Assembly (NCBI GenBank): GCA_903885565.1
Contig: CAISJI010000148.1
Location: 1-64,000, forward strand
DNA length: 64,000 nucleotides
Origin: an uncultured Planctomycetaceae bacterium
GTDB lineage: Bacteria > Planctomycetota > Planctomycetia > Pirellulales > UBA1268
Reading direction: 5' to 3'
In this document: positions 17,171 through 28,776 of the stretch, one piece after another
Layout: every line of letters starts with the position of its first letter
Numbering within the stretch: position 1 is the stretch's first letter
Notes under the pieces: model-generated
Told to the model about the DNA's origin: nothing
What the model saw: the letters and a program-made list of their open reading frames with translations, nothing else
The model's database searches: none
Made by a program: the position numbers and the translations under genes

Positions 17171-19778
17171 GGAAGGCAAAGAATTCGGTTTGTCCCCCCT
17201 GCCCGAAGCCATAGGAATGCAGTCCGGCCCCCAGCAGGAAATTGACGCCATACCACGACATCCCGATCACCGCCGCGCCCAGCACGCTTCCCGCCGCCAG
17301 ACCGAAATTGCCGATCCAGCCCGCATATCGTCCATGGAGCACCACGAGATAGGCCAGCAGCGAGACCAACGCCCACACTTCCTTTGGATCCCACCCCCAG
17401 AAACGGCCCCAGGAGACGTCGGCCCACAGCCCCCCCAGGATCGTGCCGGCAGCCAACAGGAGCACCGCCACCTGCATTGCCTTGTAGATGAATCCCGCCA
17501 GTTCGGCGCACGCTGCCGGGGGACGTTTGCCACCGCCTGCTGTCGGCCGGTACGAGCCGAGCAGGTAGTGCCCCAGGGATAACAGGCCCAGCCCCCACGC
17601 CAGTGCCCCGGCGGCATAGCTGGAGACGATTGTCAGGACATGGATGGTGAGCCAGAAGTTGTCCCGCAACACCGGCTGTAGCGGACTAAACTGCTTGCCT
17701 GGAATCGGAAAAAACCAGGCGATGAATGTGCCGGCGAAGGCCACCGCCGTGACGACCAGGCCAAACGACTTGCGGGAGTAAACCTCCGGGAGCATCTCCT
17801 GGAGATGGCCGTTTCGCCACGACAGCGGTACCGCAGCCACAGCCGTCAGCAGTGTCAGGAGGACTCGCGGCAGATACCAAACCGTCGGTAGCAGCATCGA
17901 CAGGCCCACCAGCCAGACCACGAGGTTGTTGAGGTTGGGGAGGGACCGGTCGATATCGGTCTGCGGGAGCAGGTTGACGATCGTGCGACCACCGGCGGCG
18001 TAGGGGGCGATCGTCAGCACCCAGAGCACAAGCGCTGCCACGGCCACCCGAGGCAGAAGCAGCCCCCACTGCACGAGATTCCAGCCGGTCGATCCGCCCA
18101 GCAGGCCCTGCTGCCGCTGGTCCAGGGCAACAGCCTCGCCGGGCACCAGGTTTCCCAGCGGCTCCGGCAGCGCCGTCAGCCGCCAGGCATCCCCCAGCCC
18201 GCGGGCGCAGGCCGGAGCGAGCAGAAAACAGAGCCCCAACAGCGAGAGGAAAAACGGCACGTAGATCACCGTTTCGTACATGTTGGTCACGGGAGCCCAG
18301 CCGGTGATCGCCACGCGCGAGCCGAATGCTGCTGCCGTCCAGAGGAGTTCGAAAGCCAACAGGCCGGTGCCCAGCCAGAACATCACCCCGCGGGCCCGGC
18401 TGACGGCCAGAGCGAAGGCGCCGAGTGCCAGCAGGCTGGCAACCCACGACAGCCGGAACGGATCGCTCTGGTTGTAGACAACCTCCCGCCGCGTGCTGCC
18501 TGCCGCGGGGTAGGTGGTGTGGCGCAGCAGATCGGCGTCGGCCCGTCCTACCGGCAGGTTTTGGCGCAGGGGATCGATGGCATCCCCCAAGGCCCTGAGG
18601 CGGGTCGCCAGATTTTCAGATGCCGCCCGGGCATCGGCCGGACGGGCCTGATCGCTGGGCGCCGCGGTCACCACCGCCGCCAGAGCGGCGAAGGCGCTGC
18701 GCACCGCCGTCACGCGGTCTGCTGGATAGCCCGGCAGCAGCGCTTCGGGGGCATCCAGCAGCGTCGACAAGCTCAGCCATGGCGCCATGTCTTCCTGGGC
18801 AGTGCGTTCGGTCTCCAGAGCCTCGGCATGGAGGGCAGGCACCACCAGCAGACCGCCGCCGTTGTCGTACAGCGATTCCCCCAGCACATCCAGCCAATCG
18901 GTGAACAGGCGCAGTGAACGCTGCACGTCGGCGGCGGGGGTGCCAATCGCCGTCCGTAGGTCGGCGAAGGCCTGTTGCACTCCCTCCACTCGCGAGACCG
19001 CATCGGAGGTGGGGAAGCGGGAAGACTGGCCGAGCGATTCCGCCAGCGACAACAAGGCAGCATCGAGTTTCCCCAGCGATTCCTCGGGCACGCTCCCTCC
19101 GTCAGCCAGGCGGGTGCGCAATGGCTTCCACGCCGCCGCCACCTGTTCGAAGCTCCGCAGGAATTTTGTCCGCCCGACGCTGTCGGCCGCCGCCCGGAAT
19201 GAAAGCTGCCGCCAGGTGACGTAGGCCTGCCAGAGTTGCTCCACCTTGGCATCGACCCCCTCGGCGCGAAAAGGGCTTCCGGTGGCCATCGATTCCCGCC
19301 GGCTCTGATCGAGGGCCAGCAGGCGGCGGCGCAGCGGTTCGCTCTCGGCAACATCGGCGGGAGAAGCATATTTCAGACGGCGTTTCCCTCCGGGATCTGT
19401 CGCGAATATCGGTAGTTCCAACAGTGCCCGCAGCTCTTCATGTTCGGCGATCAGAAAGGGGATCTCCTCCCAGGCTTGTGGCCGCACCAGCCAGTCGAGC
19501 AGCAGTTCATCGGCCTCCCACTTCACCAGCGCTCCCGCCGGTCCCGTCGCCAGACGGGGCGACTGCGTGTTGCAGATCGCCTCGCTATGCCGGCGGGCAA
19601 AGGTGTCCAGCGGCATGATCCGCCCATCCTCAAGCACTGGGATCTCCCGCCAGGCGGCCAAGCCGCTGGAGAGTCCGGGGACTGGGGCATCGGCTGTTGC
19701 CAACTGGGCCCACAGGCCCGCCAGTATCAGGCACAGGGCGGTCCTCTCGAGCCAGCGGTGTGTGGTGGGCATCATCAT
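17103..19778 (-). CDS. ccsA: Cytochrome c biogenesis protein CcsA-like, with long N-terminal extension
   Basis: C-terminal CcsA signature WADVSWGRFWGWDPKEVWALVSLLAYLVVLHGRYAG, ITGWAPVTNMYETVIYVPFFLSLLG, many TM helices. Overlaps the upstream ResB gene by 4 nt. Confidence 0.9.
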   Translation of the reverse strand: MMMPTTHRWLERTALCLILAGLWAQLATADAPVPGLSSGLAAWREIPVLEDGRIMPLDTFARRHSEAICNTQSPRLATGPAGALVKWEADELLLDWLVRPQAWEEIPFLIAEHEELRALLELPIFATDPGGKRRLKYASPADVAESEPLRRRLLALDQSRRESMATGSPFRAEGVDAKVEQLWQAYVTWRQLSFRAAADSVGRTKFLRSFEQVAAAWKPLRTRLADGGSVPEESLGKLDAALLSLAESLGQSSRFPTSDAVSRVEGVQQAFADLRTAIGTPAADVQRSLRLFTDWLDVLGESLYDNGGGLLVVPALHAEALETERTAQEDMAPWLSLSTLLDAPEALLPGYPADRVTAVRSAFAALAAVVTAAPSDQARPADARAASENLATRLRALGDAIDPLRQNLPVGRADADLLRHTTYPAAGSTRREVVYNQSDPFRLSWVASLLALGAFALAVSRARGVMFWLGTGLLAFELLWTAAAFGSRVAITGWAPVTNMYETVIYVPFFLSLLGLCFLLAPACARGLGDAWRLTALPEPLGNLVPGEAVALDQRQQGLLGGSTGWNLVQWGLLLPRVAVAALVLWVLTIAPYAAGGRTIVNLLPQTDIDRSLPNLNNLVVWLVGLSMLLPTVWYLPRVLLTLLTAVAAVPLSWRNGHLQEMLPEVYSRKSFGLVVTAVAFAGTFIAWFFPIPGKQFSPLQPVLRDNFWLTIHVLTIVSSYAAGALAWGLGLLSLGHYLLGSYRPTAGGGKRPPAACAELAGFIYKAMQVAVLLLAAGTILGGLWADVSWGRFWGWDPKEVWALVSLLAYLVVLHGRYAGWIGNFGLAAGSVLGAAVIGMSWYGVNFLLGAGLHSYGFGQGGQTEFFAFLIANVVLLAAAGWRLKRETTGA

Positions 19779-22141
19779 CCATCTCCAATGCGTGCTGTGG
19801 GCGGAACCCTGCGTGCGGTCCGGACTCCTGAGCCGGTGTCAGGAATCGGTTGCGACTCACCCGAACGGGCGCTGGTGCCGCGTGAACCGAAGAAATAGGC
19901 CCGCATGTAGAACATCGTGAAGATGCCCGCCACGATCAGGCCGCTGCCAGCATATTTGACGCCTCGTCCCGGATCATAGTTGACCGTAAGCACAGAGGCC
20001 TCCAGCTTTTCCGGGCGAGGCGACAGATTTTTTGTGAAGCGCTCGTAGAGGTCGTCTCCAGGCACCCACGGTCCCATGAAGCTCTCCTGAAAGAGGCGGT
20101 AGGAACGGCCTGTGGCCGGGTCGGAGAAATCGACCGGCGCGTTCATCGTGATGGTCACCGGCTGGCCCACCAGCGGCTTCCCCTGCGGCGAGAGGAATTC
20201 CACCACACTCGAGAAGTGGGAGGCCTGGCTGGTGCCCGGATCGAGCCGCCGCTCAAAATTGTCGAGCTTCACATCAAACCCGATATCGATCGTATCGGGG
20301 GAGAGTGTCGCCGTGACAGTGCGGGATGTGCCTGCCACGGTGCGCTCCTCGGTGGGGCCCGGAGTTTCCTCGATCGGCTGCACTGGCATGCCAGCCAGCC
20401 AGAATTCCTCCGCCCGGCCATCGACAGTGAGTCGCACTCGGGCGGCGCGCCGTTTCGCCGAGGGGGGCTTGTTCTTGTCGAAGGGGAGCGGCAGCGTCGC
20501 CACCTCGAGCTTTTCGGCGGGCAGGAAGCGCTCAACCCGCAATTCCAACTGGGCTTTGGGCATCGCGAAGGCGGGTACCGGCGTGCCATCGGCAGGCAGA
20601 AGGCCGCTGGTGCCGACGGGGGCCTGCCAGCGCCGATAGAGCAGACGCTGCCCTGCCGCCGCGGGGTCGGCGCCACTGCCCGGTGCCTGCACGATGTCGA
20701 TCCGGCTGCGGGCCTTGCCCTGCATCCGCTCGGCAGCATCGGCCGCGGCATGCTCGATCCAGAGCGTGCCGTACACCCCCGCCCGAGGTGCGTGGATCGT
20801 CACTTCGGGGAGATCTGCCAACACCACCATCTCTTCGTCGCGCCCCTGGTCGCCGCGTCTCACCTGCAATCGCACCGCCGAGAGTTGGGATTGAAAATCG
20901 GTCACCTCAATGAAGAGATCGGTTCCCTCGATCACGCTGCGCGGCTTGTCGAGGAGATCATCGATCAGGAATCGATGGGGGCGGCCGTCGGCGACGAGCA
21001 CGAGTTGGCCCTTCTGGCCGTAGCCGAGGGCGGGATCGGGAATGCCTGCCAGAAATGCCTCAGCCTCTGGCGGAGAGGCGATCTTCCAAAACACCACACT
21101 GCCCCCCCCGACACTGGAGCGATGCCGTTGCGCTGCGCTGCGGAGCGGATCGGGTTGCCAGGCCAGTTCCACCGGCATCCACATCCCGCCCGGTCTGGCC
21201 TCATCAGCGCCGCCGGGTGCAAATGTGTCGCTGCCAATGCGCAGGCTCACGCTGGGGGCCAGGGCTGTGGTGGAATCGGCATAGAAGTCGAGCACCTCCA
21301 GCCGGACACCATCTTCGTCGTGGAGCACTCCGGCGTCGCGACGCACCAAGCCCCAGGGGAACCAGGGGCGGTGTACCGGCGACGCTCCCCGCGGCTGCGG
21401 CGGGGGAGACTGTGTGCGGGACGCGGTCTGGACCGGTCCATATTCATTCCAGGAAAACGGCCCCGACCGAAACTCGATCGGCCCGATCACAGACTCCTGC
21501 CGCTGGCTGCCGGCAGGGGACGATCCCCGGGGGCGGATGCGAAGGGTGAAGTGGCTTGAGTCTTCGTAGGCTTTGCTCCCCCGGCTCCCTTCCAGCAGCG
21601 GAATCTGGGCGTCGACTCCTCCCCGCTGTGAGAGCAGGCAGCCGGCCAAGAGCACCAGCAGGCCGATATGGGTGATGACAAAGCCGGTTTGGTGGCGTTT
21701 CCATGGGTAGCGGATGGCCGCTGCGCAGAAGATGCTCACCCCCAACAGGGCATTGAGGAGGGTGAACCACCAGGTGTTCCAGACGCCGAATTTCACCGCT
21801 TCGGTGCCGAAAGCGCTCTCCACGAACGTTCCCAATCCGAGCACGATGGCCAGCAGCGCGATCAACACCACCGCAAACTGCAGCGAGGCGAAAAATTCGT
21901 AGGCGGTCAGAATCATCCGCACCGGGAGGGGCTGGTCGGATGTGGCAAGCCGGCGTGCTGGCATGGATGTTTCAGGAGGACGGCGAGGGAGCACCAGAAA
22001 CGGTGACATGCGAGAGGACGGCCGCCCGCTACGGGAATTATAGTGCCGGCGACGCAGGCGCGGAGAGTGCGAGGCTGGAGACGCCTCGGCGCACCGGTCA
22101 GGGCAGCCATTTTTGGCGGCTGAGGGCTCCCGCTGGGGCAT
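19775..22141 (-). CDS. ResB/Ccs1-like cytochrome c biogenesis protein
   Basis: ILTAYEFFASLQFAVVLIALLAIVLGLGTFVESAFGTEAVKFGVWNTWWFTLLNALLGVSIFCAAAIRYPWKRHQTGFVITHIGLLVLLAGCLLSQRGGVD and C-terminal NYDPGRGVKYAGSGLIVAGIFTMFYMRAYFF. The true start may be internal. Confidence 0.88.
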   Translation of the reverse strand: MPQREPSAAKNGCPDRCAEASPASHSPRLRRRHYNSRSGRPSSRMSPFLVLPRRPPETSMPARRLATSDQPLPVRMILTAYEFFASLQFAVVLIALLAIVLGLGTFVESAFGTEAVKFGVWNTWWFTLLNALLGVSIFCAAAIRYPWKRHQTGFVITHIGLLVLLAGCLLSQRGGVDAQIPLLEGSRGSKAYEDSSHFTLRIRPRGSSPAGSQRQESVIGPIEFRSGPFSWNEYGPVQTASRTQSPPPQPRGASPVHRPWFPWGLVRRDAGVLHDEDGVRLEVLDFYADSTTALAPSVSLRIGSDTFAPGGADEARPGGMWMPVELAWQPDPLRSAAQRHRSSVGGGSVVFWKIASPPEAEAFLAGIPDPALGYGQKGQLVLVADGRPHRFLIDDLLDKPRSVIEGTDLFIEVTDFQSQLSAVRLQVRRGDQGRDEEMVVLADLPEVTIHAPRAGVYGTLWIEHAAADAAERMQGKARSRIDIVQAPGSGADPAAAGQRLLYRRWQAPVGTSGLLPADGTPVPAFAMPKAQLELRVERFLPAEKLEVATLPLPFDKNKPPSAKRRAARVRLTVDGRAEEFWLAGMPVQPIEETPGPTEERTVAGTSRTVTATLSPDTIDIGFDVKLDNFERRLDPGTSQASHFSSVVEFLSPQGKPLVGQPVTITMNAPVDFSDPATGRSYRLFQESFMGPWVPGDDLYERFTKNLSPRPEKLEASVLTVNYDPGRGVKYAGSGLIVAGIFTMFYMRAYFFGSRGTSARSGESQPIPDTGSGVRTARRVPPTARIGDG

Positions 22142-22168: not shown

Positions 22169-23389
22169 CTACCGCCGCCACCCGAACGCTTCAGCCATGG
22201 CGTTGAGAAGAGGGTTGGAGAGCGTCGTGCTCTCCGGGCTGCCGATGGTGCGCACCAGATCGTAGGCGATAAAGCCGCCAAAGAGCATGAGCAGTGAGCA
22301 GCAGATCAGCCCGCAGAGTTGCCAGACGCTGAACGACATGTCGTCCAGCCCTGAAAGAGGGAATTGGAGGGCTTCGGAGGATGCGCTGACCCCCACGACG
22401 CTTTCCTCTGAAAAGCTCGATCCCTGGCCCCCGGCGGCCTGCCCAAAAAAGCTGGAATCACCCGCCTCCGATTCGGAGGCGATCACCACCGAGGCGCTCT
22501 CATCGTCGCCGGGGGAGCCGCCCAATTCAAAGGCGTCCCCCTCGGTGCCCGCTCCCTTGCCGGCGTCGCCGAGGTCGAGTCCCGAGCCGAGCCCACCGCT
22601 CCCCTCGAGCGACACGCCCGACAGGCCCAAGCCAGCGCCTGAGAGCCCGCCCCCAGGGCCTGAGAGGCCGGAGAGTCCTCCGATTGCCGAACTTCCCGCC
22701 CCCTTGGCGGCTTTGCCCGGCCCGGAGCCGCCGAGTCCGGAAAGAGCGCCGGCGAGGCCCGAAGGAGGGCCGCCGATACCGGAGAGATTGATGTCCAGCT
22801 TGCCCGAATCGGCCGTTCCGGAAACCGCCGATGGCGCCGCCAGATCACCCCCCAGAGATGGTGAAGATGCGCCGATAATCGATTCCAGCGCCAGGTCTTC
22901 GCTCTCAGCTTCATCACCCAACGCATGCTCGTTGAGCATGATGTCGGCACCGGAGAGGTGACCGGGGCCAGACAGCGACAGTCCGGAAATATCCTGCTTG
23001 CCACTTCCCGCCCCACCGGTGCCCTTGCCGGTTCCCGATGGAGAGGCTGGCTGCGGTCCTGATCCGCCGAAAATCGAATCCTCGCCGGTGTCGTCGTCGT
23101 CAAACACCAGTTGCATGTCGTCGGCGTCGAGTGCCGGTGTGCCCGGCGTCAGTGCGGGAGCCGATCCAGCCACCGCCAGTTCAGGCAGATCAAGATCGAG
23201 GTCGCCCGACGCGGAAGCCTCTTCCCCGAGGGTTCGCATCACCCTCTCGATCTCATCGACCTTAAACTTTGTCGTGGAACCGTCCCGGGTGGGGAAGAGT
23301 TTTTTCCGGTCGACGAGTTGGTGCACCTCGTCGATGCTCAGCCCCAGCTGGCGGGCTGCTTCTTCCAACGACATGAACTTGCCGGCCAT
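22169..23389 (-). CDS. HTH (excisionase/MerR-like) protein with Gly/Ser-rich linker and C-terminal TM helix
   Basis: N-term MAGKFMSLEEAARQLGLSIDEVHQLVDRKKLFPTRDGSTTKFKVDEIERVM; low-complexity Gly/Ser middle; C-term VWQLCGLICCSLLMLFGGFIAYDLVRTIG. Confidence 0.78.
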   Translation of the reverse strand: MAGKFMSLEEAARQLGLSIDEVHQLVDRKKLFPTRDGSTTKFKVDEIERVMRTLGEEASASGDLDLDLPELAVAGSAPALTPGTPALDADDMQLVFDDDDTGEDSIFGGSGPQPASPSGTGKGTGGAGSGKQDISGLSLSGPGHLSGADIMLNEHALGDEAESEDLALESIIGASSPSLGGDLAAPSAVSGTADSGKLDINLSGIGGPPSGLAGALSGLGGSGPGKAAKGAGSSAIGGLSGLSGPGGGLSGAGLGLSGVSLEGSGGLGSGLDLGDAGKGAGTEGDAFELGGSPGDDESASVVIASESEAGDSSFFGQAAGGQGSSFSEESVVGVSASSEALQFPLSGLDDMSFSVWQLCGLICCSLLMLFGGFIAYDLVRTIGSPESTTLSNPLLNAMAEAFGWRR

Positions 23390-23505: not shown

Positions 23506-23940
23506 CTACGGACGATTTTGCCCAGATGGTGCAGATTCCGGCGAAGTTTCCAGCATGCGGCGCAGAGCGGCTGGCTTGGGGTCTTGGGCATTGAAGTCGC
23601 CCACCATCAGGTCCCAGGTGATATTCCGGGCGCTTTTGAGCGTCAGCGTGCCCTGGGCACCATCCACATGGTAGACCGCGGCATTCTTCAACTGGGGATC
23701 GACCACCAGCAGCAGAAGGCGGCTCTCATCGAGCGGGGTCGAGGAAATCCAGAGCCCCTGGGTCGCCGGAACGTCCCCGCCGGAGGACAGAGGTGGGCGG
23801 CCGGGCCGTTGGGCCCAGAGCAGCGGGCCACCGCAGGCCAGCACCGCGACCAGCGCAGCGCAGGCGACCGTCGACCCTGAAAACCCCTGGCTTTTCCGCC
23901 GGCCGACCGAGCGAGCTGTCTTCAATCGAAACAGGTGCAT
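23506..23940 (-). CDS. Conserved-looking hypothetical protein with N-terminal signal/anchor
   Basis: STVACAALVAVLACGGPLLWAQ signal-like segment, then LLLLVVDPQLKNAAVYHVDGAQGTLTLKSARNITWDLMVGDFNAQDPKP. The start codon is uncertain; its 5' end overlaps repeat element C. Confidence 0.6.
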   Translation of the reverse strand: MHLFRLKTARSVGRRKSQGFSGSTVACAALVAVLACGGPLLWAQRPGRPPLSSGGDVPATQGLWISSTPLDESRLLLLVVDPQLKNAAVYHVDGAQGTLTLKSARNITWDLMVGDFNAQDPKPAALRRMLETSPESAPSGQNRP

Positions 23941-23967
23941 GGAGGACTTTTTCGATGGACAGTTAGG
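23863..23967 (-). repeat. Element C: full-length dispersed element
   Basis: Aligns over ~100 bp with the reverse complement of element D, including GGTGCATGGAGGACTTTTTC, CTGT(C/T)TTCAATC, CCGACCGAG, TGGCTTTTC and GGCGACCG. Confidence 0.8.
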
Positions 23968-24298
23968 TGCCACAGGCATGAGGAGCCTCCTGATGCGATA
24001 CCGGGGTTTCCCCAAGGGTGGTCGAGCGACCGGAGAGGATGGGGTCTGCGGGGGGTGAAAATAGGCCTGCAGGCGTGGATGGGCAATCCCGAAACAGGCA
24101 GTCTGGGCGCGCCGCCGCGCCTGCCTCCCAGCCTGCCAGGGCAGCCCAGCCTGCCGAGTGTTCGCCGCGCGGCTGCCATTTCGGTCTGCCGGATGTTTCG
24201 GTTCAATCGGTTGGGCAGACCTTACCGATGGAAGGGGAGTTCCTTTCTGCCGGGAGTGCCAGGAACGCATCGAACCAGTTGGCTTCGGAGGTGTGCGG

Positions 24299-25600
24299 GT
24301 GTCGTACTTCAAAGCGTTTTCGAGGACCCTGTTCCGTTCGCCGCTGCTCTGGGGCACGGCGGTTGCTTTCTGCTTCTTCGCGCTGGTTCAGGCGCGAGTT
24401 ATCACCAACCCCACCGTCCTCCGTTATCTCGTTGGCCACTGGGTCGAGTACGTCGAAACGTGGATGTTCGGCATCGGGCTCTCGGCGCTGTTTCTGAAGT
24501 GGCGCGAAGTCGTGCGGCAGAAAGCGGTTGTCAACGAGGAACTGCTCGCCCCCATTCCGCAGGGGGGCCAGGAGCCGGCTGACGCGGGGCTGTTGTTGGA
24601 GAGCCTTGGCGAATCTGAAGAAACCGACGACTACCTTCCCCGCCGCCTGCGGGAATCGCTCGATCTGGTGAAGCGCACCGGAACGGCCGACGGCTTGGAA
24701 GATCACCTCAAATATCTCTCCGATCTGGACGCATCCCGGGCCGCCCAGAGCTACGGCCTGATGCGGTTTGTCATCTGGGCCATCCCGATCATGGGCTTTC
24801 TCGGCACCGTGATCGGCATCACCGAGGCCATCGCCGGACTCTCACCGACGCAACTGGAAAACATTACCGGCGTGGTGGCGGGGCTGGGCGTGGCCTTCGA
24901 TACCACGGCCACCGCCCTGGCGCTGGCGATGGTGCTCATGTTTCTGCAGTACACAATCGACCGCGCCGAGCAGGCGCTCCTCACGGCTGTCGATCACTCC
25001 GCCTGGACGGCGCTGGCTGGACGGTTTCAGTCGGTTGAAGGTGGCGACGGTACCGCCCTGGCGATTGCCCGGCTCAGTGAGGCTGTCACGCGCAGTTCGG
25101 CCCGGCTCATCGACGCTCAGGAGCAGTCGTGGCGATCCCTTGAGCAAGCAGCCTCGGGAAATATCGAATCCGCCTTTGCCCACAGTGGCTCCTCGCTGCA
25201 GGCAGCGCTGGAGGGCTCGCTCGATGCCACGCTGGCCCGGTGGACCGATTCGCTGACGCAGGCGCACGACCATCTGACGAGCCAGCGGGAGGATCGCTGG
25301 GCGCGGGCTGCCGATGCTCTCACCAGCGCCATGCAGGGTTTTGAAAGACACCAGCGGACCTTGGCGGGGCAGACCGAGATGTTGTCGAAGGTTGTCGATG
25401 CCACCCGCGATGTCGCCACGCTCGAGCGGACGCTCGAGGCGAACCTGAGCACGCTGACAGCCACTGCCCGCTTTGATGAGACGCTTGCGACCTTGGCCGC
25501 CGCCATCCAACTGCTTGCCGCCCGCACCGCCGATGCGGCCACAGAGCCGCGCCGCGTGGAACTTCAAGGCAGTAGTCGCCTCGTCGGAAAGGCAGCATGA
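24299..25600 (+). CDS. MotA/TolQ/ExbB-like proton-channel family protein
   Basis: From GTG 24299: N-terminal TM helix; VIWAIPIMGFLGTVIGITEAIAGLSPTQLENITGVVAGLGVAFDTTATALALAMVLMFLQY is the TolQ/ExbB/MotA-type helix pair; long C-terminal helical region. Confidence 0.88.
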   Translation: MSYFKAFSRTLFRSPLLWGTAVAFCFFALVQARVITNPTVLRYLVGHWVEYVETWMFGIGLSALFLKWREVVRQKAVVNEELLAPIPQGGQEPADAGLLLESLGESEETDDYLPRRLRESLDLVKRTGTADGLEDHLKYLSDLDASRAAQSYGLMRFVIWAIPIMGFLGTVIGITEAIAGLSPTQLENITGVVAGLGVAFDTTATALALAMVLMFLQYTIDRAEQALLTAVDHSAWTALAGRFQSVEGGDGTALAIARLSEAVTRSSARLIDAQEQSWRSLEQAASGNIESAFAHSGSSLQAALEGSLDATLARWTDSLTQAHDHLTSQREDRWARAADALTSAMQGFERHQRTLAGQTEMLSKVVDATRDVATLERTLEANLSTLTATARFDETLATLAAAIQLLAARTADAATEPRRVELQGSSRLVGKAA

Positions 25601-27738
25601 GCCGCAACCGGAATGCCGAAGCCCCCACGATCTCACTGTTCCCGTTCCTGGCCGTGCTTCTGTGCACGATGGGAGCGCTGCTGGTGCTGCTGGTGTTGTT
25701 CAGTCGCTCCGCTTCCATGGGGCAGCAGAACGCCGCCACAGCTGCGGTGGTCGAGGAACTCGAGCTCGCGAAGGAAAATGTCTCCTGGCGGCTGAACCAG
25801 CTGGCCGGAGTTCGGGATCGCACCGCCGAGGATCTCGCCAAGGCCCGGATGCAACTGGCCGGCGTCGAGGAGAATTCCCGGGAGCTGACCGACGAGCTGG
25901 AACGGATCCTCCGCACCGCGAAGGAATTGGAGGGGGACGCCGGTTCTCGGCAGGCGACCGAGGCGGAGCTGGCGGCGCTTGAGGAGCGGCTGAAAAATGC
26001 CCGCGAGTCGCTCGACAAGGCCCGGGCTGACCAGGCACAGAAGCCGGCTGCCTATGCCGTGGTCCCTTATGTGGGGGTCAACGGCACCCATCGCCGGCCG
26101 CTCTACATCGAATGTTGTATCGACGGCGTCTTCCTGCAGCCGGAGGGGATTCGCCTCAACCCGTCCGACTTCGAGGGCCCCCCGGGCCCCGGCAATCCTC
26201 TGGCCTGCGCGCTGCGGGCAGCGCGAGAGCATCTCGCCCGCAACTCGGCCAACTCCGGTGATCCGGCCGCGCAGCCCTATCCCCTGCTGTTGATCCGTCC
26301 TTCGGGAGTGATGGCCTATTACGCCGCCCGGGAGAGCATCGCCTCGTGGGGAAGTGAGTTTGGCTACCAACTCATCGACGAGGATTGGACGCTCGCATTC
26401 CCTCCGGGCGATCCGGCTCTGAAGGAGATCGAACTGCGGGCGGTGGAGGAATCCCGCCGGCGGCTGCAGTGGCTGGCTGAAAACCGCCCCGCCCCGCCCC
26501 CCAAGCCGAAGCAGCAGTACCGTGCCGCGACCACGCGCGGCGGCGTTGTGGCTGATGGGGGACCGAGTGTGTTGGGGGATCAGTCGCGTTACAACTGGAC
26601 CGAACAGCAGGCCGCAGCAGCCACTCCCTCCGGCGGTCGCGGCGCCGGCGGCAGCATCTTTGGATCGGGCGGCGGACGGGGCGCGGCAGGCGGGCCGGAC
26701 GGATCTGCGGGGCAGGTGGCGGGCTCTTCCGGCGCGGAGGGCGGAGCCGGGAGCGGAGAGCCGACCGGTCCGGGCCGACCGCTCAATTCAAGCGGCGGCG
26801 GGGCTGCCGGCGACGGTGAGAATGGATCAGGAAGCGGAGATGCGATCCTGGGCCGCACGGGGAGCAGCTGGCAGGGAGGCCCTGGTGGCCCCGCAGCGGG
26901 CAGCGGCACTGGCGGGGGTGGGGGCGGGAGTTCTCCGGCAGGGAGCGGCCAGCCCGACGGACAGGCGGGAACGGGCAATCCGCAGGGGAATTCGGTTGAG
27001 GGGGGCCGCCCGGCGGGAGCGACCTCCCGGTTTGGTCAGGACAGGCCGGCCGGCGGGGCGGGCTCCCCTGCCGACTCAGCAGGGGGGGCGGAAAGCCGCT
27101 ACGGCGGTCCCTCCAAGTTTGGCACCGACAGGCCGGGTGAAGCGGGGAGCCCGGGCGGGACATCGGCTGGCGACACCTCTGGCAGCACGGCCAGTGCCGG
27201 TGGAACATCGGCGGCTGGAGGAGGAGGTGGCGGTGGGGCAGAAATGCCCGGGATGTTGAAGGCGGGGGGCACGGCCGGTGGCTCCTCTTCTGCTTCTGCA
27301 TCCTCCCAGGACGCAGCCCAGGCGGGTGCCATGGCCAAGACCCGCGGGAAGAACTGGGCCAGTCTGGCCACGCAGGACCGTCCCATTCCCCTCACGCGAC
27401 CGATTCGCGTGGAATGTTCGCTCCACGAAATACGGATCACCGACGATCTGGGGCGCAGGATCGAAACCCGTATTCCGGTGGCGGGAGATACGGTTTCCGC
27501 CATCGATCCATTTGTAAGGGCGATTCATACCAAGGTGGAGGGCTGGGGCATCGCGGGCGACAGGATGTACTGGAAGCCAGAACTGGTGCTCACCGCCAGT
27601 GCCGATGGCCAGTCGCGGATGGACGATCTCGAACGACTGCTCGCCGACAGTGGTCTCGATACCCGTGCCATGGGCCGCGACAACAAGATTCATCCCCTGC
27701 CTCCGGTCCAGCGGGCGGCTTTTTTCCAGGCGAAATAG
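25597..27738 (+). CDS. TolR-like N-terminal TM plus coiled-coil plus Gly/Ser-rich protein
   Basis: TISLFPFLAVLLCTMGALLVLLVLF N-terminal helix, predicted coiled-coil, ~240-residue Gly/Ser-rich region (26620-27320), and a C-terminal globular domain. ATGA overlap with the upstream gene. Confidence 0.85.
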   Translation: MSRNRNAEAPTISLFPFLAVLLCTMGALLVLLVLFSRSASMGQQNAATAAVVEELELAKENVSWRLNQLAGVRDRTAEDLAKARMQLAGVEENSRELTDELERILRTAKELEGDAGSRQATEAELAALEERLKNARESLDKARADQAQKPAAYAVVPYVGVNGTHRRPLYIECCIDGVFLQPEGIRLNPSDFEGPPGPGNPLACALRAAREHLARNSANSGDPAAQPYPLLLIRPSGVMAYYAARESIASWGSEFGYQLIDEDWTLAFPPGDPALKEIELRAVEESRRRLQWLAENRPAPPPKPKQQYRAATTRGGVVADGGPSVLGDQSRYNWTEQQAAAATPSGGRGAGGSIFGSGGGRGAAGGPDGSAGQVAGSSGAEGGAGSGEPTGPGRPLNSSGGGAAGDGENGSGSGDAILGRTGSSWQGGPGGPAAGSGTGGGGGGSSPAGSGQPDGQAGTGNPQGNSVEGGRPAGATSRFGQDRPAGGAGSPADSAGGAESRYGGPSKFGTDRPGEAGSPGGTSAGDTSGSTASAGGTSAAGGGGGGGAEMPGMLKAGGTAGGSSSASASSQDAAQAGAMAKTRGKNWASLATQDRPIPLTRPIRVECSLHEIRITDDLGRRIETRIPVAGDTVSAIDPFVRAIHTKVEGWGIAGDRMYWKPELVLTASADGQSRMDDLERLLADSGLDTRAMGRDNKIHPLPPVQRAAFFQAK

Positions 27739-27780
27739 CCGCCAGTCCCCAGGGCATCAGGCACGCGAAGGAAATTCTCC

Positions 27781-28776
27781 ATGGCCCGTCCAAAACCGGA
27801 AGACATCAGCACCGCAGGGCAGGATTCCTTTCTCGATGTCGTCACCAACATCGTGGGAATCATCATCATCCTCGTGATGGTGGTGGGAGGCCGGGCCAAG
27901 CAGCTCTCTTTCTCGAGTACGGCGCGATCCAATCAGCAGGTCGAGACGCTCAAGCGTGAGGTGCGCGATCTGGAACGAACGGTGGTGGCCGCCGAGAGCG
28001 AGATTGCCGAACTGGCCACGCAGACTTCCACAATGGCCACCGCCGCCGCTCTCACGGCCGAGGGCCGACTGGAATTGGCCACCGCGGTGGCCGCTGCGAG
28101 AGCCGATCTCGAAGGGCGGAAGAAACTGGTCGACTCGGCCCGCCTGAAGGTGGCGGAGGCGGCTGCCCGTCGCCAGCAACTCCAGACCGATATCCAGAAC
28201 ACGAATCTGGAGGCGGATGGGCTGGCGCACCTGCCGGCCACGACGAAGGAAGTGCTCGCCTATCCCACGCCGATTGGCCGGGTGGTTATGGGAGAGGAAT
28301 TGCACTTTCGCCTCGACGGCGGCCGCATCTCCTACATCCCGCTGACGGAGCTGTTTGAACAGGCCAAAATGCAAACCCGCCGGCAGGGAGAATCGATCGC
28401 CTCCATGCAGTCGCGGGTGGAATCGGTGGGGCCTGTGCAGGGCTATGCGCTCGATTATGTGATCGAAGCCAAGGTCGATCAGGCCCGGGGGCAGGTGCTG
28501 ATCCGCTCGCGCGAATGGGTGGTGCGGCCAGCGCTCCAGTATTTGGGTGAGACGGCGGCCGAGGCGATTGCACCCAATTCAAAATTCCGCCGCGTGCTCG
28601 CCGACGCCACGCCGGAAACGACCGTCACGCTCTGGTGTTATCCCGACAGCTTTGAGGCGTTCCGCGCGATCCGCGAGGAGCTTCACAAGCGGGGCATGCC
28701 GGTGGCCGGGCGGCCGATGCCGGAGGGGGCACCCATCGGTGGCTCCACCGAGGGGAGCAAGTCGGTCGTGCAGTAG
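27781..28776 (+). CDS. TolR/MotB-like N-terminal TM protein with coiled-coil
   Basis: DSFLDVVTNIVGIIIILVMVVG N-terminal helix with Asp, then a long coiled-coil (QVETLKREVRDLERTVVAAESEIAEL...) and a C-terminal domain; 42 nt downstream of the previous gene. Confidence 0.85.
   Translation: MARPKPEDISTAGQDSFLDVVTNIVGIIIILVMVVGGRAKQLSFSSTARSNQQVETLKREVRDLERTVVAAESEIAELATQTSTMATAAALTAEGRLELATAVAAARADLEGRKKLVDSARLKVAEAAARRQQLQTDIQNTNLEADGLAHLPATTKEVLAYPTPIGRVVMGEELHFRLDGGRISYIPLTELFEQAKMQTRRQGESIASMQSRVESVGPVQGYALDYVIEAKVDQARGQVLIRSREWVVRPALQYLGETAAEAIAPNSKFRRVLADATPETTVTLWCYPDSFEAFRAIREELHKRGMPVAGRPMPEGAPIGGSTEGSKSVVQ

Follow-up and report, generated by a model that had tools for sequence, protein, structure and literature searches.

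Known motors of the 5:2 class contain two identical Asp-bearing partner subunits placed in asymmetric surroundings, and current models of their action let the two carboxylates alternate. In the 5:2 model, ten ions pass per turn in 36-degree steps, and a single carboxylate would give five ions and steps of 72 degrees. Canonical ExbD has the Asp at a defined site of its membrane helix, while the transducers TonB and TolA have a helix with an SHLS motif. For MotB and PomB, two Asp residues in asymmetric surroundings have been described (PMC12215075). AglQ and AglS, the partner subunits of the Myxococcus gliding motor, have both been described with a conserved Asp, and it is not known whether they form a heterodimer or homodimers; no conclusive sequence kinship links GldLM to other 5:2 motors (both PMC9389320). 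A 2025 study, in the part of it used here, reports operons of the PVC group that combine TPR, tolQ-like, two heterologous tolR-like and vWA genes (PMC12204202). The main text of a paper on essential genes of Planctopirus limnophila does not name ExbB, ExbD, TolQ or MotA (PMC10632474). In a small search of the open-access literature, we found no paper that describes conservation of a partner lacking the Asp next to one that has it.

The three genes considered here are located on contig C148 of a planctomycete genome of 4.46 Mb that is 95% complete. We refer to the whole 64,000-nucleotide stretch of DNA that was analysed as the window. The coordinates and reading frames of genes 1 to 3, the ATGA overlap and the 42-nt gap, as given in a first-pass annotation made from the letters alone, were all found correct on recheck (Table 1).

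Table 1. Genes of the operon and their features, with positions in the window.
Feature	Position	Strand	Description and basis
Gene 1	24299-25600	+	433 aa, GTG start; MotA/TolQ/ExbB-type channel subunit; residues from about 222 to 433 form a long C-terminal tail
Gene 1 pore-helix segment FVIWAIPIMGFLGTVIGIT	24767-24823	+	hydropathy; holds the invariant GTV threonine
Gene 1 pore-helix segment VAFDTTATALALAMVLMFLQYTI	24890-24958	+	invariant FDTT; aligned to the ExbB pore helix
Gene 2	25597-27738	+	713 aa; 4-nt ATGA overlap with gene 1; Asp-less axle-type partner
Gene 2 membrane helix, residues 14-36	25636-25704	+	alignments A1, A4, A5; hhalign to the gene 3 family
Gene 2 Ala19 codon	25651-25653	+	equivalent to the Asp site of ExbD/TolR; Pro retained at -3
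Gene 2 helical stalk, about residues 37-148	25705-26040	+	AlphaFold2 helices 15-114 and 122-148
Gene 2 periplasmic domain A, about residues 152-300	26050-26496	+	conserved block in A1; AlphaFold2 strand/helix order
Gene 2 linker, Gly/Ser/Ala-rich, about 286 aa here	26497-27354	+	pLDDT <50 for the greater part of 343-573
Gene 2 periplasmic domain B, about residues 587-713	27355-27735	+	diverged copy of domain A; pLDDT mostly >90
Gene 3	27781-28776	+	331 aa, start 42 nt past the gene 2 stop; Asp-bearing axle partner
Gene 3 membrane helix, residues 14-41	27820-27903	+	no variation at Asp19 in the 34 rows of A3 and the 13 of A6
Gene 3 Asp19 codon	27835-27837	+	
Gene 3 helical stalk, residues 50-149	27928-28227	+	AlphaFold2 helix, high pLDDT
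Gene 3 periplasmic domain, about residues 155-331	28243-28773	+	ends in conserved PIGGS..GSKS motif; AlphaFold2

The product of gene 1 had been read as a TolQ/ExbB/MotA-type protein, and this assignment stands, as its score against PF01618 (MotA_ExbB) was 44.6 bits, above the Pfam cut-off of 22.9; phmmer also matched it to solved ExbB and TolQ. The threonine of the GTV motif is present in 47 of 47 aligned rows from operons of the same kind (system A) and in 13 of 13 rows from a related kind (system B), and FDTT is found in 47 of 47 rows of system A. Because the pore threonines and the invariant FDTT are kept, an ion path through gene 1 seems likely, as judged by sequence. Residues 199-203 (24893-24907) read AFDTT without exception in system A, and the Asp of this motif, which may have a role in the ion path, is close to a Glu position of the aligned ExbB helix.

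Genes 2 and 3 each encode a single-helix protein with a coiled-coil stalk and a periplasmic part. The segments TISLFPFLAVLLCTMGALLVLL and DSFLDVVTNIVGIIIILVMVV, from which the first-pass annotation had proposed a TolR-like pair, are present, each inside the only strong membrane helix of its protein, and the AlphaFold2 models of both have a long helix after the membrane segment, in agreement with the proposed single helix followed by a coiled-coil. In the model of gene 3 (mean pLDDT 80.8), the membrane helix is followed by a stalk helix of 100 residues and then by a mixed domain. The gene 2 model has, after the membrane helix and stalk, domains A and B joined by a linker of low confidence. A single novel C-terminal domain had been suggested for both; gene 2 bears two related periplasmic domains instead (hhalign probability 93%, E 3.1e-7 for A against B), so that the tethered domain B is probably a duplicate of domain A. 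The long Gly/Ser-rich spacer is indeed present here, but it is a variable feature: across species the linker is 119-493 aa long with 7-38% Gly, and in several families it is not Gly-rich.

Searches of Pfam, NCBIfam and PADLOC assigned genes 2 and 3 to no family and gave just coiled-coil noise. Neither of them matched PF02472 (ExbD/TolR) at E <= 10, so membership in that family was dropped. The gene 2 and gene 3 profiles were not significantly similar to canonical ExbD in hhalign, and a sequence search of the PDB with them returned just coiled-coil and chance matches. At the level of structure, Foldseek against the PDB gave nothing at E <= 0.001, with weak matches to ribosomal uS11 and RNase H-like proteins, and ExbD (8vgc) at rank 48 (E 0.22, TM 0.55 by ExbD's own length). 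The order of strands and helices in the AlphaFold2 models of the periplasmic domains is plausible for an ExbD-like fold. Kinship of these modelled domains to the ExbD fold is thus suggestive only.

The two partners differ at position 19 of their membrane helices. In the window's own family the helix motifs are SLFPFLAVLLCxMG in gene 2 and DSFLDxxTNIVGI in gene 3, with Ala19 invariant in 16 aligned orthologues of gene 2 and Asp19 in 15 of gene 3. Among 57 sampled orthologous operons, position 19 of gene 2 is Ala in 55 and Thr in two, while gene 3 always has Asp; the asymmetry that had been read from this single locus is therefore not due to chance. Nine loci from deeper families of the class show Ala (seven), Ser (one) or Thr (one) in gene 2, and gene 3 keeps its Asp. 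No acidic residue is found anywhere in the gene 2 membrane helix. The Pro three residues before the site is kept in gene 2, as in TPxID of ExbD, whereas gene 3 has Ser there.

By comparison of their sequence families, gene 2 is a paralogue of gene 3. In system B the two families align along their length (hhalign E 1.9e-18) with residue 19 opposite residue 19, and in system A the two helices likewise align without a gap, again 19 opposite 19. System B is a clade in which gene 2 has neither the tether nor the second domain; its residue 19 is Ser, except at three loci in the family of the window, where it is Asp. A third, diverged and widely spread kind of operon (C) has Asp in both helices (LF.FQDI and LLLDTICN.FG), counted over the loci in which both motifs are readable and with Ser in one outlying row; this kind is defined by profile scores below 100 bits, and its edge is not sharp. 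The relatives thus form a graded series of Asp/Asp, Ser/Asp and Ala/Asp. Homologues of gene 2 with Asp at the site do exist, then, among the paralogues, but no orthologue that we read has it. Since paralogues of gene 2 have Asp at this position, the alignment is supported and Ala looks like a loss, and since paralogous operons have Asp or Ser there, the gene 2 helix appears to be of the axle type.

In the gene 1 tree, system A falls to one side of a branch with 98% SH-aLRT support and system B to one side of another (84%); the tree is in practice unrooted, the branch to the ExbB outgroup (9.0) being too long to place a root. The Asp rows of system B are nested among its Ser rows, so Asp may have been regained there. 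Given the Asp of canonical ExbD, a loss is nevertheless the simpler account, and gene 2 has probably lost it.

The operon is widespread. In the window's own family, gene 3 was found in 58 of 72 genomes and in 12 of 12 genera, a few of the 58 matches being weak and belonging to members of a paralogous operon. Among 149 genomes of the planctomycete class that are at least 90% complete, 127 have gene 3 and 124 have gene 2, although some of the weakest matches may be paralogues; the absences of both genes are mostly in one family (f81). The order gene 1, gene 2, gene 3 is identical at every locus whose contig reaches far enough for it to be judged. The gene 3 helix of family f81 (L230-L234) contains an Arg mid-helix (VGIIIRLILVAW), which is absent from the other loci read.

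Besides the trio itself, no neighbour gene was common to all orders at the loci compared. The first-pass statement that TolA, TonB and TolB genes are not adjacent is consistent with the neighbours seen. At Pirellulales loci, the divergent flank encodes a small protein, an HTH protein that has a membrane helix and is Gly-rich in its middle, and ResB-type proteins of cytochrome c biogenesis; none of them hints at the machine that is driven. In the window, the frame at 23506-24357 (-) overlaps the start of gene 1 by 59 nt and represents a divergent neighbour kept in about ten loci; its true start is probably internal, because the orthologues are just about 110-142 aa long. The protein encoded at 22169-23389 (-) has an HTH_17/MerR-like N-terminus that scores just below the Pfam cut-off, a long Gly/Ser-rich middle and a hydrophobic C-terminal segment, with relatives at the equivalent place in other Pirellulales loci (L055, L072-L074). 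A ResB-like cytochrome c biogenesis protein is encoded at 19775-22141 (-), and it is syntenic upstream of the operon in several Pirellulales loci.

The stalks of the two partners match in length. With stalk length taken from the alignments as the number of residues between position 19 and the periplasmic domain, the values for gene 2 and gene 3 correlate with r = 0.965 over 55 species (range 146-300 residues), and their difference has a mean of 0.3 aa and a standard deviation of 8.6. The match is seen within family f5 (r = 0.90) and in the other families (r = 0.86), and it persists after correction for phylogeny (independent contrasts r = 0.92, 54 contrasts, p = 4e-23); as a control, the length of the gene 2 tail is uncorrelated (r ~0). 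A common periplasm width as the cause of this match was ruled out by system B: the gene 2 stalks that these genomes encode in system B are 140-157 residues long and do not track the system A stalks (r = -0.49, n = 14), of which those of gene 2 range over 153-238. Agreement is looser at the nine loci of deeper families that have gene 1 (r = 0.27, offsets of about -45 to +21 aa, measured from rough anchors), and the figure for family f6 is meaningless, as its locus L224 has a broken frame.

Family f6 offers a natural loss of the channel gene. At the 11 loci read (L215-L225), gene 1 is missing beside the gene 2/gene 3 pair, and no close gene 1 orthologue was found in 12 f6 genomes, where the best matches reached 68-87 bits as compared to 272-559 bits in 12 comparison genomes. 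The periplasmic domains are kept, but FPFLA and DSFLD are gone from the two helices; some of these helices contain Glu, so it is the motif that was lost rather than every acid. Because the stalks match, the helix motifs vanish together where gene 1 is gone, the gene order is kept, Asp occurs just in gene 3 and the helices align without gaps, these comparisons are pointing to genes 2 and 3 forming one unit, that is, to their presence in one complex.

The reading that we consider somewhat the better bet is that the trio encodes an ion motor of the 5:2 type with a mixed gene 2/gene 3 axle, in which one arm is protonatable and the other, Asp-less arm carries a tethered domain copy. Gene 1 would form the channel ring of an inner-membrane motor of the MotAB/ExbBD/TolQR kind. 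Genes 2 and 3 would each give one central helix, so that the gene 2 helix would lie inside the pore, and would run side by side as a length-matched stalk up to their periplasmic domains. The ion, of whichever type, would be taken up and released by the carboxylate of gene 3 alone. In gene 2, Asp would have been replaced by Ala with the rest of the helix kept, and this arm would have gained a second domain copy, whose tether, being long and flexible, probably extends to a partner located at the wall or the outer membrane. A fuller version of the same model, which we put forward only tentatively, holds that a pentameric ring would turn a heterodimeric axle with a single Asp by five ions per turn in 72-degree steps, not ten in 36-degree steps, the inert arm serving to bear the tethered output domain.

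On the other hand, a gene 3 homodimer might be the axle, as in TolQR, with gene 2 outside the ring at the TonB/TolA site as a tethered force transducer and the stalks pairing just in the periplasm. The single helix, long flexible linker and distal domain of gene 2 do resemble the layout of TolA and TonB, and such an arrangement would also match the stalk lengths and explain why gene 2 has no Asp; the stalk match is also compatible with a 2:2 stalk and gene 3 alone in the pore. However, a pattern search found neither the SHLS motif nor a His in the gene 2 helix, and in system B gene 2 lacks the tether entirely. Moreover, the helices of genes 2 and 3 are homologous, and in related operons the gene 2 helix has Asp, which a peripheral helix would not need. 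As helix 2 is homologous to helix 3, relatives have Asp and SHLS is absent, both the TonB/TolA role and the gene 3-homodimer axle are less favoured, and we regard this arrangement as rather unlikely.

It seems improbable that genes 2 and 3 each form a homodimer and, with gene 1, a motor of their own, of which one is inactive or regulatory, and that the lengths match because both share one periplasm width. Homodimers are the rule in MotB, ExbD and TolR, but the same-genome stalks of systems A and B indicate that width does not set the length, and decay would be expected of a homodimer without Asp, whereas the gene 2 helix is nearly invariant. Equally small is the chance that the main function is a structural periplasmic heterodimer which ties membrane, wall and outer membrane, with ion flow as an accessory, for although the pair is retained in f6 where gene 1 and the axle motifs are gone, outside f6 gene 1 and both motifs are almost invariant, so that energization appears to be selected.

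The planctomycete class has an unusual wall and outer membrane biology, and the trio is a widespread, so far unstudied and probably energized envelope machine of this class. A conserved natural motor with a single carboxylate would provide a direct test of the models based on alternating carboxylates. If the mixed axle with one protonatable arm is indeed what the operon encodes, two alternating carboxylates are not needed in the 5:2 class of motors.

When compared with known systems, the operon resembles ExbB-ExbD and TolQ-TolR in its PF01618 channel and in having a single-helix partner with a helix Asp and a periplasmic domain, and the Pro at -3 of TPxID in ExbD is present even in gene 2. It differs from them in that there are two unlike partners, one of them Asp-less, a second, tethered domain and no PF02472 match, with a span of 146-300 residues that separates the Asp site from the domain and no TonB, TolA, TolB or Pal neighbours. 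A canonical set is encoded elsewhere in the same genome: contig C142 (L114:2149-8577) carries two TPR-like proteins, a label that is a reading of the sequence rather than a profile match, followed by ExbB and two ExbDs with DMTPMID in both. This is the only other MotA_ExbB locus in the genome and is distinct from the operon reported here. The PVC operons of the 2025 study (PMC12204202) likewise combine, in planctomycetes, one tolQ-like gene and two unlike tolR-like genes, but the part of that study used here does not describe an Asp-less partner, and no TPR or vWA genes were found among those window neighbours that were scanned with Pfam.

As for the motors with a MotA-type ring and an Asp-bearing partner, MotAB and ZorAB, both features are shared, and the long C-terminal tail of gene 1 is like that of ZorA. 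In contrast to them, no OmpA/Pal-like wall-binding domain was found here and no adjacent flagellar or zorCDE genes were seen. PADLOC matches of the trio to ZorA had E values of 0.0015 or weaker, and with no zorC, zorD or zorE recognised among the neighbours, membership in Zorya was ruled out. The Myxococcus gliding motor AglR-AglQ-AglS has the same set of one TolQ-like and two TolR-like genes, yet both of its TolR-like partners carry Asp, which gene 2 does not. Finally, GldL-GldM is also a 5:2 motor with a long periplasmic partner, and the difference lies in the channel subunit, since gene 1 is plainly of the MotA/ExbB family.
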